In this document: positions 24,722 to 46,408 of the stretch, piece by piece
Layout: each line of letters starts with the position of its first letter
How positions within the stretch are numbered: the first letter of the stretch is position 1
Assembly: GCF_000621545.1 (NCBI RefSeq)
Contig: NZ_JHYA01000011.1
Location: 1-64,000 of the forward strand
Source: Anaerovibrio lipolyticus LB2005
GTDB lineage: Bacteria > Bacillota > Negativicutes > Selenomonadales > Selenomonadaceae
Direction of reading: 5' to 3'
Length of the DNA: 64,000 bases
Notes under the pieces: generated by a model
Databases searched by the model: none
Told to the model about the DNA's origin: nothing
The model's input: only the letters and a program-made list of their open reading frames with translations
Made by a program: the position numbers and the translations under genes

Positions 24722-24746
24722 CATATTTGTAAGATGAATTAAATAA

Positions 24747-24952
24747 TGATTGGAACAGGTGCCGAAAGGCCTAATAGAGAAGCTGGTTAAATGCCAGCAC
24801 GGTCCCGCCACTGTATCAGGGAGCGAGTCACAATTATGTCACTGGATTTTATCTGGGAAGGCGTGATGAGCGATGATCTGGAGTCAGGAGAACTGCCTGT
24901 TTAACAATCACCGTTTGACCTGCGAGTGATGGGGATGGGGATTTAGCAACGT
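24747..24952 (+). promoter_or_regulatory. Cobalamin riboswitch 1
   Basis: A B12-sensing aptamer. Diagnostic blocks are all present: GGAACAGGTGCC at the 5' side, GGTCCCGCCACTG in the core, CTGGGAAGGC, and the B12 box GAGTCAGGAGAACTGCCTG near 24881-24899. A closing stem TGATTG (24747-24752)/CAATCA (24905-24910) is visible. A conserved tail (ACCTGCGAG then a GGGGATT end) follows, as in riboswitch 2. The next structure is a strong terminator at 24964-24989, so ligand-controlled attenuation is likely. No gene follows directly. Confidence 0.93.
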
Positions 24953-26824: not shown

Positions 26825-26859
26825 TAGATAAAATTGCAATATACTATACCTAGTTAAAT

Positions 26860-27075
26860 ATTTGGAACAGGTGCCAAGGCCTAGTTGCTAGGCTGGCCTA
26901 ACATGAGAAACCGGTTAAAGGCCGGTACGGTCCCGCCACTGTATCAGGGAATCAGGCGTTACTATATGTCACTGGAGTATTCTGGGAAGGCAACGCCATG
27001 GTTATGATCTGGAGTCAGGAGAACTGCCTGTTGAACAATCACCGTTATTACCTGCGAGAGATAGGAAGGGGATTA
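26860..27075 (+). promoter_or_regulatory. Cobalamin riboswitch 2, upstream of cbiK
   Basis: A second B12 aptamer with the same blocks as riboswitch 1: GGAACAGGTGCC, GGTCCCGCCACTG, TCTGGGAAGGC, the B12 box GAGTCAGGAGAACTGCCTG near 27012-27030, then CAATCACCG and the ACCTGCGAG tail. The peripheral stem after GTGCC is longer than in copy 1. A terminator at 27106-27147 lies before cbiK, so high cobalamin should switch off the cbiK operon. Confidence 0.94.
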
Positions 27076-33975: not shown

Positions 33976-34460
33976 GCCTTCCCCTCGAGGGGAAGGGGGA
34001 CCGCTACTGTATGTAGCGGTGGATGAGGTGTAACATATATGAATAAAGAAAATAATTCATTTTTAACAGGTAACGCACAAAAATTACGTAAAAATATGAC
34101 TAAGGAAGAACGGCATCTTTGGTATGATTTTTTAAAAAAATTATCTGTCAATATTAATAGGCAAAAGGTTTTGGGAAACTATATTTTGGATTTTTATTGT
34201 GCTAGTAAGAAATTAGCCATAGAATTAGATGGAACACAACATTTTGAGGATATAGGCAGAGAAAAAGATGCATTACGTGATAATTATTTGAATGAAAGAG
34301 GTATAAAGGTTCTCAGGTATTCCAACAAAGAAGTTAATCAAAATTTTTCTAATGTATGTGAAGATATTTATATTCATCTTTTTGGACAACAGTAAGCGAG
34401 AAAAGTTTGATGACACCTCATCCGAGCGCTTTGCGCTCACCTTCCCCTCGAGGGGAAGGC
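33976..34460 (+). mobile_element. Inverted-repeat element carrying a DUF559 endonuclease gene
   Basis: Both ends carry a composite repeat in opposite orientation. The outermost part is a GC-rich palindrome CCTTCCCCTCGAGGGGAAGG (33977-33996 and 34440-34459). Next comes a short hairpin whose sequence differs between ends (ACCGCTAC/GTAGCGGT at 34000-34020; GAGCGC/GCGCTC at 34424-34438). Innermost is GGATGAGGTGT (34021-34031), found inverted as ACACCTCATCC (34413-34423). The DUF559 gene lies between. No clear target duplication is seen. Confidence 0.65.
34039..34395 (+). CDS. DUF559 Vsr-like endonuclease-domain protein
   Basis: A 118-aa protein of the DUF559 family, which shares the PD-(D/E)XK fold of very-short-patch-repair endonucleases. 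Marks: LRKNMTKEERHLWYDFLKKL at the start, the catalytic-looking core ILDFYCASKKLAIELDGTQH (D, E and D spaced as in the family), then RGIKVLRYSNKEVNQNF. Its Shine-Dalgarno (GAGGTG) is part of the inner terminal repeat. Base composition is AT-rich against GC-rich repeats and neighbours, suggesting transfer. DNA target and activity are unknown; a role in spreading the surrounding element is my inference. Confidence 0.85.
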   Translation: MNKENNSFLTGNAQKLRKNMTKEERHLWYDFLKKLSVNINRQKVLGNYILDFYCASKKLAIELDGTQHFEDIGREKDALRDNYLNERGIKVLRYSNKEVNQNFSNVCEDIYIHLFGQQ

Positions 34461-34470
34461 TTACTATACC

Positions 34471-34499
34471 TTGACTTACAACACATATTTTGCTAAAAT
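34471..34499 (+). promoter_or_regulatory. Promoter of the glyQS T-box leader
   Basis: TTGACT (34471-34476), 17-bp spacer, TAAAAT (34494-34499). It begins only 11 nt after the DUF559 element ends. Confidence 0.75.
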
Positions 34500-34532
34500 T
34501 CTTCATAGCGATGAAGAAGAGGAGTAGTCCTT

Positions 34533-34692
34533 TAGGAACTGTCACGGAATAACTCCTGTATCTTGCTTGTCTAAATATTCACTGTCTGCGTTGTCGTCCT
34601 TCGTCATAGCACCACTATGACTCACTTCTCCGCCTAGACAGTAAATATTTATTCTTCGCAATATCCTAGGATTTACTCCGTGACAGTTCCTA
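34533..34692. repeat. 160-bp imperfect palindrome inserted in T-box Stem I
   Basis: TAGGAACTGTCACGGA (34533-34548) is matched exactly by TCCGTGACAGTTCCTA (34677-34692). Pairing continues inward with few mismatches (AATATT...AATATT, ACTGTCT/AGACAGT) to a tip CATAG-CACCA-CTATG near 34606-34620. There is no coding capacity. It looks like a miniature inverted-repeat or other repeated palindromic element. Confidence 0.75.
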
Positions 34693-34815
34693 TCAAGCGA
34701 TGCAGGGGTGGTGCGAGCCTGCTGTTGGGACGAATGGCACTTTGGAGCGTAAGTAAATATCCATTGAGGCGGAATGCTTTGGCATTCAAGCAGGGTGGAA
34801 CCGCGGGTTATCTCG

Positions 34816-34855
34816 TCCCTGTAACATTATTAACCGATGTTACAGGGGCTTTTTA
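34816..34855 (+). terminator. T-box terminator
   Basis: CCCTGTAACAT (34817-34827) pairs with ATGTTACAGGG (34837-34847), followed by GCTTTTT. The 5' arm also pairs with the T-box side in the antiterminator. Confidence 0.85.
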
Positions 34856-34892
34856 TATGCATCTGTAACAAATCAGAAGGAGGCAAACTCTT

Positions 34893-35774
34893 ATGAAATA
34901 TCAGGAAATAATCCTGGCCCTTCAGCAGTTCTGGTCCGAGCAGGGCTGTATTCTGGGCGAACCTTATGATGTAGAAAAGGGTGCCGGCACCATGAACCCA
35001 TTCACTTTCCTCAGAGTTCTTGGACCTGAGCCTTGGAATGTGGCCTATGTGGAGCCTTCCCGCCGTCCGGCAGATGGTCGTTATGGTGACAACCCAAACC
35101 GCCTTTATCAGCACCATCAGTTCCAGGTTATTATGAAGCCATCCCCTGACAATATTCAGGAGCTTTATCTGGCATCTCTGGAGCGTCTTGGCATCAACCC
35201 TAAGGAGCACGATATCCGCTTTGTAGAGGATAACTGGGAATCTCCAACTCTTGGTGCCTGGGGCCTTGGCTGGGAGGTATGGCTTGATGGTATGGAAATC
35301 ACCCAGTTCACCTATTTCCAGCAGGTGGGCAGTCAGGATATTAAGCCAACTGCCGTTGAAATTACCTATGGTCTGGAGCGCCTTGCTATGTACATTCAGG
35401 GCGTGGAGAATGTATACGACATTCAGTGGGTTGGCAACTACACCTATGGTGATGTATTCCATCAGAACGAGTTTGAGCAGTCCACCTATGCCTTCGATCT
35501 GTCTGATGCAGATCTGCTCTTTGAGCTTTTCGACAAGTATGAAAAAGAGGCTGTTCGCATAATCGAAAAGGGCTATGTTCATCCAGCCTATGACTATGTA
35601 TTAAAGTGCTCCCATGCATTCAATATGTTGGATGCCCGTGGTGCTATTTCCGTATCTGAGCGTGCTGCCTTCATTGGTCGCGTTCGTAAGCTCGCCCGTA
35701 TGTGTGCCGCATGCTACTTGAAGCAGCGTGAGGAGCTGGGCTATCCAATGATGGGAAAGGGGAATAAGGCATAA
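34893..35774 (+). CDS. glyQ: Glycyl-tRNA synthetase alpha subunit
   Basis: The catalytic subunit of the bacterial alpha2beta2-type GlyRS, charging tRNA-Gly. 293 aa, normal length. Conserved runs include [52 protein letters not shown] and [26 protein letters not shown] Shine-Dalgarno precedes the ATG. It overlaps glyS by one base. The T-box upstream should raise expression when tRNA-Gly is uncharged. Confidence 0.97.
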
Positions 35775-37837
35775 TGAGCAAGACTTTATTATTAGAAATT
35801 GGTACTGAGGAAATTCCAGCCTATGCAATGCCTGGTATTATCGCTCAGCTTAAGGAAAATGCCGAGAAGACCTTCACTGACCTGCGTCTTTTCTATGACA
35901 ATGTAAAAACCATGGGTACTCCACGTCGTCTGGCCCTTATCGTGGAGGGACTGGCTGAAAATCAGGAGGACCTTTCCAAGGAGAACCGCGGTCCGGCTGT
36001 TAATATCGCCTTTGATGCCGATGGCAATCCTACCAAGGCAGCTCAGGGCTTTGCCCGGGGCCAGGGTATTGATGCCAAGGATCTGGTTACCAAGGATGGT
36101 TATGTATATGCCATGGTACATGAGGTGGGCGGCAAAACCGTTGACCTTCTCAGCGATACATTGAAGGGTCTGGTGGATGGCCTGAATTTCCCAAACAATA
36201 TGCATTGGGCTGATCTGGACTACAAGTTCATTCGTCCCCTTCGTTGGCTGGTGGGCCTCTATGGTGAGGATGTTATTGATTTTGAAACTGCCAATGTAAA
36301 ATCCGGCCGCATTTCCCGTGGCCATCGTTTCCTCTCTGATGGGGATTTTGAAATTAAGTGCGCTTGCAGCTATGAAAAGGCTTGTGAGGAGCAGTTCGTC
36401 ATCGTTGACCATAACCGTCGCCGTGAGATGATTCGTCAGCAGATCGTGGAGCTGGCTGAGTCCAAGGGTGGCAAGGCTCAGATTGAGGAAGGTCTGCTGG
36501 AGGAGGTTCTATATCTGGTAGAATATCCAACTGCTCTTTGCGGTACCATTGATGATAAGTATCTGAAGCTCCCTGCTGAGGCTGTTATCACCCCAATGCG
36601 TGACCATCAGCGTTATTTCCCTGTATTGAAGGATGGCAAGCTGATGCCTCTCTTTATTACCATCCGTAATGGTGGCAGCGAGCATCTGGAGGTTGTACAG
36701 CATGGTAATGAGCGCGTTCTTCGTGCCCGCCTTGAGGATGCCCAGTTCTTCTTCGATGAGGACCGCAAGAAGTCCCTGGAGGAGCATTGTGACAAGCTGA
36801 AGACAGTAGTATTCCAGGAAGGCCTTGGCTCTATATACGACAAGGCTGGCCGTTTGGAGAAGCTGGCAGCATATATTGCAGACCAGCTTAAGGTTTCCGA
36901 CCAGGAGAAAAAGGATGCTGTTCGTGCAGCCAAGATCTGTAAGGCTGATCTGGTAACCGGCATGGTAACTGAATTCACTGAGCTTCAGGGTATCATGGGC
37001 CGCGAATATGCCCTTCTTGATGGTGAGAACGAAGCAGTAGCCCAGGCTATTGACGAGCATTATATGCCAAGAAGCGCATCTGATGGACAGCCTGCTTCTG
37101 TAGCCGGCCGTATCGTTTCTTTGGCTGACAAGATTGATAATCTGGTGGCAACCTTCAGCCGCGGTCTTATTCCAACAGGCTCCCAGGATCCATTTGCCCT
37201 GCGTCGTCAGGCCCTTGGTATGGTAAATATGCTGGTGGAGGCCAAGTACCACATTTCCCTTTCCGGTCTTGTGGCAAAGGCTATGGAGCTCCTTAATATC
37301 ACTGATGCCAAGGCTCAGGCCAAGATGCAGGAGGATGTGGCTGACTTTATGAAGCTTCGTCTGAAGAATGTTCTTTCCGATGCTGAAATCCGCTATGATG
37401 TGGTGGATGCAGTATTTGTGGATGTTGATGATATTTATTCCGTAACCCTCCGTGCCCAGGCTGTCAATGAGGCAGTTAAGAAGGAAGGTATGGAAGAAAC
37501 GATTCAGTCCTTTAACCGTGCCGGCAACATTTCCCGCAAGGATGAAACCGTTGCTCCTGGCTGTGATGCTTCCCTCTTTGTGGAGGTAGCAGAGGGCGTG
37601 CTGAATGATGAGTTCAAGGTAGCTTCTGCCAAGGTTGAAAGCCTGCTGGCAAATCAGGACTATGCTGGTGCCATTGCTGAGCTTACCAAGCTGGCAGCTC
37701 CTATTGATGGCTTCTTTGATGCTGTTATGGTTATGGACAAGGATGAGAAGATTAAGAACAACCGCCTTGGATTGTTGAAGGCTGTTGATCAGCTCATCTG
37801 CAAGGTGGCAGACTTTAGCAAGATTGTTTTAGGATAA
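35774..37837 (+). CDS. glyS: Glycyl-tRNA synthetase beta subunit
   Basis: The tRNA-binding subunit of tetrameric GlyRS, 687 aa as usual. Seen are LLLEIGTEEIPAYAMPGI at the start, TMGTPRRLALIVEGL, MHWADLDYKFIRPLRWLVGL, an HD-like domain (VTEFTELQGIMGREYAL; VSLADKIDNLVATF, GSQDPFALRRQALG) and a C-terminal anticodon-binding-like region (DGFFDAVMVMDKDEKIKNNR). Translationally coupled to glyQ. Confidence 0.97.
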   Translation: MSKTLLLEIGTEEIPAYAMPGIIAQLKENAEKTFTDLRLFYDNVKTMGTPRRLALIVEGLAENQEDLSKENRGPAVNIAFDADGNPTKAAQGFARGQGIDAKDLVTKDGYVYAMVHEVGGKTVDLLSDTLKGLVDGLNFPNNMHWADLDYKFIRPLRWLVGLYGEDVIDFETANVKSGRISRGHRFLSDGDFEIKCACSYEKACEEQFVIVDHNRRREMIRQQIVELAESKGGKAQIEEGLLEEVLYLVEYPTALCGTIDDKYLKLPAEAVITPMRDHQRYFPVLKDGKLMPLFITIRNGGSEHLEVVQHGNERVLRARLEDAQFFFDEDRKKSLEEHCDKLKTVVFQEGLGSIYDKAGRLEKLAAYIADQLKVSDQEKKDAVRAAKICKADLVTGMVTEFTELQGIMGREYALLDGENEAVAQAIDEHYMPRSASDGQPASVAGRIVSLADKIDNLVATFSRGLIPTGSQDPFALRRQALGMVNMLVEAKYHISLSGLVAKAMELLNITDAKAQAKMQEDVADFMKLRLKNVLSDAEIRYDVVDAVFVDVDDIYSVTLRAQAVNEAVKKEGMEETIQSFNRAGNISRKDETVAPGCDASLFVEVAEGVLNDEFKVASAKVESLLANQDYAGAIAELTKLAAPIDGFFDAVMVMDKDEKIKNNRLGLLKAVDQLICKVADFSKIVLG

Positions 37838-45852: not shown

Positions 45853-46207
45853 TTATGAGCGTGAAAGACAATCGCTGACGATTTACTTCGTTTGAGGAAA
45901 GTCCGGGCTCCACAGGGCAGTGTGCTGGATAACGTCCAGCGAGGGTGACCTTAGGGAAAGTGTCATAGAAAAGGAAACCGCCTGGTTCGCCAGGTAAGGG
46001 TGGAAAGGTGCGGTAAGAGCGCACCAGCAGTCAGGTGACTGGCTGGCTTGATAAACCCCACATGGAGCAAGACCGAATAGGGAAGGGTATGAGGCGGCCC
46101 GCTGACCTTCCGGGTGTGTCGCTAGAGCTGTCAGGCAACTGGCAGTCCAGATAAATGATTGTCACCGCTTCGGCGGAACAGAACTCGGCTTATTGATCAC
46201 TCATAGC
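45853..46207 (+). ncRNA. rnpB: RNase P RNA, bacterial type A
   Basis: The catalytic RNA that matures tRNA 5' ends. Recognisable universal blocks are GAGGAAAGTCCGGGCTCC near 45894-45911, AGGGTGACCTTAGGGAAAGT, GAAACCGCC, GTAAGGGTGGAAAGGTGCGG, GTAAGAGCGCACCAGCAG, the CTTGATAAACCCCAC then GGAGCAAGACCGAATAGG stretch, and ACAGAACTCGGCTTA at the 3' side. The ends pair (TATGAG with CTCATA). Length about 355 nt is normal. Confidence 0.96.
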
Positions 46208-46246
46208 ATTTTTACAATCTAATATAATGGGCATATATATCTATAA

Positions 46247-46395
46247 AAAGCCTAATCCAGCCCATGGAGCGGGGGAACCAAATTTTTGGGGTGAATGAAA
46301 ATCAGCTGTTGCAGCACGGATGCTGCACAAGTGGATCTTAAAGGGTAGTCTTTCTCAACCCTAACCCGACAGCTAACCTCGTAGGCGCATAGAGA
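46247..46395 (+). promoter_or_regulatory. c-di-AMP riboswitch (ydaO/yuaA type)
   Basis: Characteristic sequence: AATCCAGCCCATGGAGCGGG, GGAACCAAATTTTTGGGGTG, GGATCTTAAAGGGTAG, and CCTAACCCGACAGCTAACCTCGTAGGCG at the 3' side. It lies directly upstream of an NlpC/P60 hydrolase, a classic target class. Cyclic di-AMP binding normally turns expression off. No separate promoter was found between rnpB and this element. Confidence 0.94.
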
Positions 46396-46408
46396 GAGGA
46401 GTGTCTTT

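Follow-up and report, generated by a model that had tools for sequence, protein, structure and literature searches.

The window analyzed here, a 64,000-nucleotide stretch of DNA from Anaerovibrio lipolyticus LB2005 (genome G000), carries glyQ (34893-35774, + strand; PF02091, 500.8 bits) and glyS (35774-37837, + strand; PF02092, 711.3 bits), preceded on the same strand by a leader at 34502-34857 in which a match to RF00230 is followed by a terminator stem and T-run reaching 34854. Directly upstream of the leader we read from the sequence a putative sigma-70-type promoter, TTGACT ... TGCTAAAAT (34471-34499, + strand), and comparison of leaders showed that its TTGAC and GCTAAAAT are retained in the nearest relatives. 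The 5' strand of Stem I (34506-34534, +) consists of AGCGATGA, the S-turn AGTA, GTCC (34527-34530), and then TTTA, and the 3' strand (34727-34748, +) consists of GGGAC, the specifier loop GAATGGCA, CTTT, and GGAGC, the glycine specifier codon GGC occupying 34736-34738 (+) within the loop. The distal part of Stem I (34696-34722, +) holds the T-loop AGCGA and the hairpin GCAGG/CCTGC with the T-loop TGCGA; the consensus of the T-loop motif is AGAGA and UGxRA (PMC7583486). The T-box sequence AGGGTGGAACCGCGGG, antiterminator, and terminator follow at 34792-34854 (+). Between the two strands of Stem I lies a palindromic mobile element of 156 bp, GGAACTGTCACGGA ... TCCGTGACAGTTCC (34535-34690, +). 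Identical palindromes, CCTTCCCCTCGAGGGGAAGG, lie on either side (33977-33996 and 34440-34459) of a DUF559 (PDDEXK-like) gene at 34039-34395; the gene is present in G002, whereas G004 lacks it at this site and has one palindrome there, which suggests a separate mobile cassette adjoining the T-box. Elsewhere, the window contains a pair of cobalamin riboswitches on one strand, about 2 kb from each other (24740-24914 and 26852-27045), and, at 45856-46403, an RNase P RNA gene with a c-di-AMP riboswitch ~30 nt after it.

The initial annotation had read the leader as a glycine T-box with a palindrome inside Stem I, and both the RF00230 alignment and the relatives with an empty site, described below, agree with it. 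In the covariance-model alignment, RF00230 covers 34502-34823 over its whole length (model positions 1-219/219; 57.8 bits, E 5e-12) and requires a 191-nt insertion exactly at the position of the palindrome in Stem I. The model aligns AGCGATGA...AGTAGTCC as the 5' strand and GGGACGAATGGCACTTTGGAGC, with GGC, as the 3' strand, which puts the 5' strand to the left of the palindrome; the specifier GGC is preserved, and GUCCU is paired with GGGAC, as had been proposed to be possible across the insert. Because 57.8 bits falls below the Rfam gathering cut-off for RF00230 of 93 bits, a default Rfam scan misses the T-box of the window. All but one of the orthologous glyQS leaders also score under this cut-off, and the score drops as the insert grows in the glyQS leaders of the genus, from 72-93 bits for those that are insert free or have a short remnant to 62.7 bits for a deleted copy and 55-58 bits for a full copy. 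The specifier GGC (Gly) agrees with the downstream glyQ and glyS; the distal double T-loop (AGCGA, TGCGA), AGGGTGGAACCGCGGG, and the terminator with its T-run are all present; and every T-box motif examined in the alignment and the sequence is intact despite the insert. Judged by these sequence features, the leader is a glycine T-box with Stem I split by the palindrome, and glyQ and glyS are predicted to be the genes that it regulates.

We then asked whether the split is an insertion or an ancestral arm of the T-box, since the presence of the same arm in all relatives would have pointed to the latter. Instead, five leaders of the same genus have spacers of only 6 to 13 nt between the Stem I strand and AGCGA (6 nt in G013, G010, and G003, 7 nt in G012, and 13 nt in G005). 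The complete insert, with a spacer of 165 nt, is found in G000, G008, and G014, and because G008 matches the cultured Anaerovibrio lipolyticus DSM 3074, it is not an assembly artifact of one MAG. The glyQS leader of G004 has a copy of the element with an internal deletion, and remnants are found in G002 (~12 nt) and, with element ends still recognizable, in G009 (33 nt) and G011 (a comparable stub); the spacers of G002, G004, G011, and G013 were read directly from the leader sequences. From these comparisons we concluded that the palindrome is an insertion and not an ancestral T-box arm.

The element belongs to a dispersed family. Outside glyQS, a full element is 88% identical in G011 and 75% identical in G004, and G001, G004, G007, and G015 have many copies of a shorter core. 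The ends of 16 near-identical copies, 12 in G194 and four in G017, are exactly GGAACTG...CAGTTCC or GGAGCTG...CAGCTCC, and a perfect 3-bp target duplication, TTA or TAA, surrounds all of them (16/16), implying that the family is mobile (MITE-like). A separate copy in G011 has TTA at both sides. At the T-box copy of the window, the left TTA (34532-34534, +) remains and the right copy, expected to be TTA, is a degenerate TAT (34691-34693, +) when set against the perfect duplications elsewhere. The element is noncoding, dispersed, multicopy, and shorter than 600 bp; its terminal inverted repeats are exact over 16 nt, including the flanking TA; and glyQS and valS orthologues free of the insert provide the empty sites. 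By its sequence, then, the insert has the properties of a MITE that were examined, apart from a known parent.

Elements of the IS5/IS1031 and PIF/Harbinger group typically produce TWA duplications. A search of the carrier genomes for PF13358 (DDE_3) gave hits in 0/8, and inspection by eye of open reading frame starts near lone terminal repeats in three Selenomonadaceae and three Streptomyces genomes revealed no recognizable transposase. An IS630/Tc1-mariner origin, raised by the TA/CTAG flanks, was dropped in view of the lack of PF13358 hits and of the exact copies with 3-bp TWA duplications.

Most elements extracted from reference genomes are 158 to 162 bp long, within a family range of ~155 to 162 bp. 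A core covariance model found copies in 53/189 genomes of the family Selenomonadaceae, representing 15/30 genera, with a maximum of 28 copies per genome, in G004 and G194; it found exactly one copy in the genome of the window, that in the glyQS T-box, where the conserved core hairpin GTTGTCGTC ... CTCCGCCT spans 34583-34645 (+; 72.5 bits, E 1.4e-15). The core pattern matched at least 119 stretches in reference genomes, and Streptomyces, Nocardioides, Blautia, Roseburia, other Lachnospiraceae, Propionibacteriaceae, and one Acidobacteriota were among the matches listed. Viral contigs and phages contained no match to the core pattern or to a Lachnospiraceae copy. In an alignment of 31 diverse copies, the invariant columns GTTGTCGTC..TC and CTC..TCC.CCGCCT flank a hairpin, and the core hairpin of ~50 nt is near invariant across copies. 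Across 35 cores, two helices pair in 88% of cells, and two-sided changes numbered 59, whereas shuffling gave an expectation of 17.5 (0/500 shuffles as high), a control that is inflated by related sequences; the signal was destroyed by sliding the partner by 1 to 3 columns. Pairing of the outer arms alone is no evidence for an RNA, because these arms already form inverted repeats in the DNA. G001, G007, and G015 contain palindromes of several hundred base pairs with CTGTTCAGACA ends, in which the same core is nested in much larger arms, and G004 has elements of 285-286 bp, apparently with a second insertion of ~120 bp inside.

We found no published account of this element family in the open-access literature. 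It is quite possible, if short of probable, that these copies make up an undescribed family of ~160-bp mobile palindromes spanning several phyla (Selenomonadaceae, Lachnospiraceae, Streptomyces and other Actinomycetota, and one Acidobacteriota), in which the ends vary with lineage and compensatory change preserves a core hairpin whose unpaired strands are near invariant. Conservation of this kind suggests that a host or transposition factor may read the core as folded single-stranded DNA or RNA.

A second T-box contains a copy of the element. G004 has a T-box whose Stem I carries, in its distal loop, an oppositely oriented copy; downstream is an open reading frame that reads, by eye, as valyl-tRNA synthetase (valS). 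This T-box, with its insert, scores 96.1 bits with RF00230, the T-loops AGAGA and UGAGA are kept on either side of the insert, and the orthologous valS leaders of other species are empty at the site, several of them with TTA or TAA there. Another core element, with GTGCACTG ends, is located between valS and the terminator of its T-box in G004 (C202; L097 898-969), so that the valS leader region holds two elements of the family. The longest other T-boxes of the genus (300-411 nt) contained no element, and no T-box was matched at 10 loci that hold other Selenomonadaceae copies; several further proximities of core and T-box were discarded as products of a loose pattern. Two of ~60 loci in the genus are T-boxes, and one of these was where the analysis began, so that the data show no preference for T-boxes. 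In open-access text, we found no case described in which a mobile element interrupts Stem I of a T-box.

Counting the flanking TA, the insert measures 160 bp (34533-34692); its exact 16-nt terminal repeats, TAGGAACTGTCACGGA (34533-34548, +; 34677-34692, -), occur nowhere else in the window, and its outer 25-nt arms are 92% complementary. The initial annotation had described a near-perfect palindrome with exact 16-nt ends; the ends are indeed exact, but "near-perfect" is too strong, as the ungapped self-complementarity is 62/160 and the middle is the conserved core, mostly unpaired. Folded alone, the 160 nt are predicted to form a single hairpin (-63.6 kcal/mol, 114/160 nt paired), and the complete leader has a folding z of -6.2. 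When the Stem I pairs of Rfam were enforced and the energy cost was compared with and without the insert, the cost was 5.5-6.2 kcal/mol with it and 6.3-7.0 kcal/mol without it, the element folding as a separate hairpin in the constrained structure. The proposal that the insert is an extra hairpin compatible with Stem I is thus borne out in the model, where it is predicted to add no cost. Unconstrained folding did not recover Stem I either with or without the insert, and nearest-neighbor energies leave out the K-turn, S-turn, and T-loops; for these reasons, the folding speaks for compatibility, not for function.

We consider it very likely that the glyQS leader represents the tolerated insertion of a small, nonautonomous MITE-like element that forms an extra hairpin in Stem I of the T-box. 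The element would have inserted at TTA, within the short stretch linking the upper helix of Stem I (GTCC) to the first distal T-loop (AGCGA), and it is placed between helix and T-loop, outside any contact motif. In the transcript, the insert would fold first and independently into a long hairpin, across the base of which the two halves of Stem I would then join, giving a three-way junction with all tRNA-contact motifs kept. Its independent folding, a continued response to tRNA-Gly, and a near-neutral effect on the leader are what we would infer from such an arrangement.

An unlikely alternative is that the insert has been domesticated and is selectively kept, the added arm tuning tRNA binding, RNAP pausing, or leader stability. 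The element and the 3' part of the leader are 99-100% identical in G000, G008, and G014, against differences of 7.6-12.8% at glyQ third positions, and in G000 and G014 the insert is the sole remaining copy, all of which would fit selective retention. In the glyQS gene tree, however, the carriers G014, G000, and G008 cluster with G002 (98/99), which is the sister of G008 (100/99 support) and, although nested among carriers, has lost nearly all of the insert; an essential role for the insert is unlikely because G002 kept only a short spacer; the insert may still tune the switch, as the initial annotation had suggested. Furthermore, the stretch that runs from the intergenic region to the end of the leader is 96-99% identical between G000 and G004, but their glyQ and glyS are only 77-91% identical, so that the leader block has evidently been exchanged by recombination between them. 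Recombination of the leader also explains the high identity and, being real, means that the similarity of the insert among carriers is no clean evidence for selection. The stubs of G009 and G011 point to one of two histories, an older insertion followed by repeated deletions or a spread by recombination, and tiny palindromes made of element ends alone (e.g., GGAACTGGCAATAAATGAACAGTTCC) at other loci resemble them.

Less likely again is a broken switch, in which the leader has lost its ability to sense tRNA-Gly, leaving glyQS constitutive or partly terminated. Stem I is interrupted beside the distal T-loops and deletions recur in the clade, as such damage might predict, but the T-box motifs are intact, the constrained fold carries no added cost, and the 3' part of the leader is identical at 127-128/128 positions among carriers while glyQ third positions drift, to which recombination may contribute. 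We think it still more doubtful that the insert acts as an intervening sequence at which RNase III cleaves the transcript, so that, as in fragmented 23S rRNA, base pairing would keep the nicked Stem I together: the hairpin is predicted to be long (-63.6 kcal/mol), and RNase III has been proposed to target the NEMIS transcripts of Neisseria (PMC2229807), but the hairpin has many bulges and loops around the core, and a cut in the nascent leader would free a 5' strand held by just ~11 pairs. Finally, an ancestral, lineage-specific arm that evolved in place, its short forms arising by loss, is highly improbable and was rejected, for although G009 and G011 have short hairpin-like spacers and G001 and G015 have a different, unrelated hairpin (GGCAGATGGCAAGGTAGATGGCTGTCTGTGCC) at the same point of Stem I, homologous copies with target duplications are scattered over many unrelated loci and other genera, and outgroup leaders have short spacers.

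With a tolerated insertion as the preferred reading, one genus displays every step, namely, empty site, full insert, internal deletion, stub, and near-clean loss, and offers natural pairs of leaders, including that of a cultured type strain, for testing the tolerance of a tRNA sensor. The insert also leads to a mobile palindrome family with a structured core conserved across phyla and no known partner protein, and if the proposal of an undescribed family spanning several phyla is true, such elements would be a source of unexplained lineage-specific arms in T-boxes and other riboswitches.

Among known systems, the element resembles IS5 (IS1031 group) and PIF/Harbinger elements in its 3-bp TNA/TWA target duplication and in terminal repeats starting with GG, and it differs from them in that no transposase was found adjoining or matching it. 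Like bacterial MITEs (PMC10969869), it is shorter than 200 bp, noncoding, and dispersed, with terminal inverted repeats, target duplications, and a stable predicted hairpin transcript; unlike them, it is almost wholly palindromic, keeps a near-invariant core across phyla with variable ends, and has no parent transposase found. The pneumococcal BOX repeat, which sits between two trp T-boxes that still appear functional (PMC3049150), is likewise a mobile structured repeat that makes a composite leader in which the T-boxes apparently still work, but BOX lies between two complete T-boxes, whereas the Anaerovibrio element splits Stem I itself. According to PMC2229807, which cites Ogata 2002, Rickettsia palindromic elements (105-146 bp) are known inside tmRNA and RNase P (M1) RNA and so are likewise tolerated within essential structured RNAs; they are another element family in another host, and the RNAs concerned are catalytic or translational, whereas here the RNA is a cis-regulatory tRNA sensor. 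The leader itself resembles the B. subtilis glyQS class of T-boxes in the AGUA S-turn of Stem I, the GGC specifier, the double T-loop, the lack of Stem II, and the T-box antiterminator and intrinsic terminator upstream of glyQS, and it departs from the glycyl class in that 165 nt, not ~6 nt, separate the upper Stem I strand from the first T-loop.
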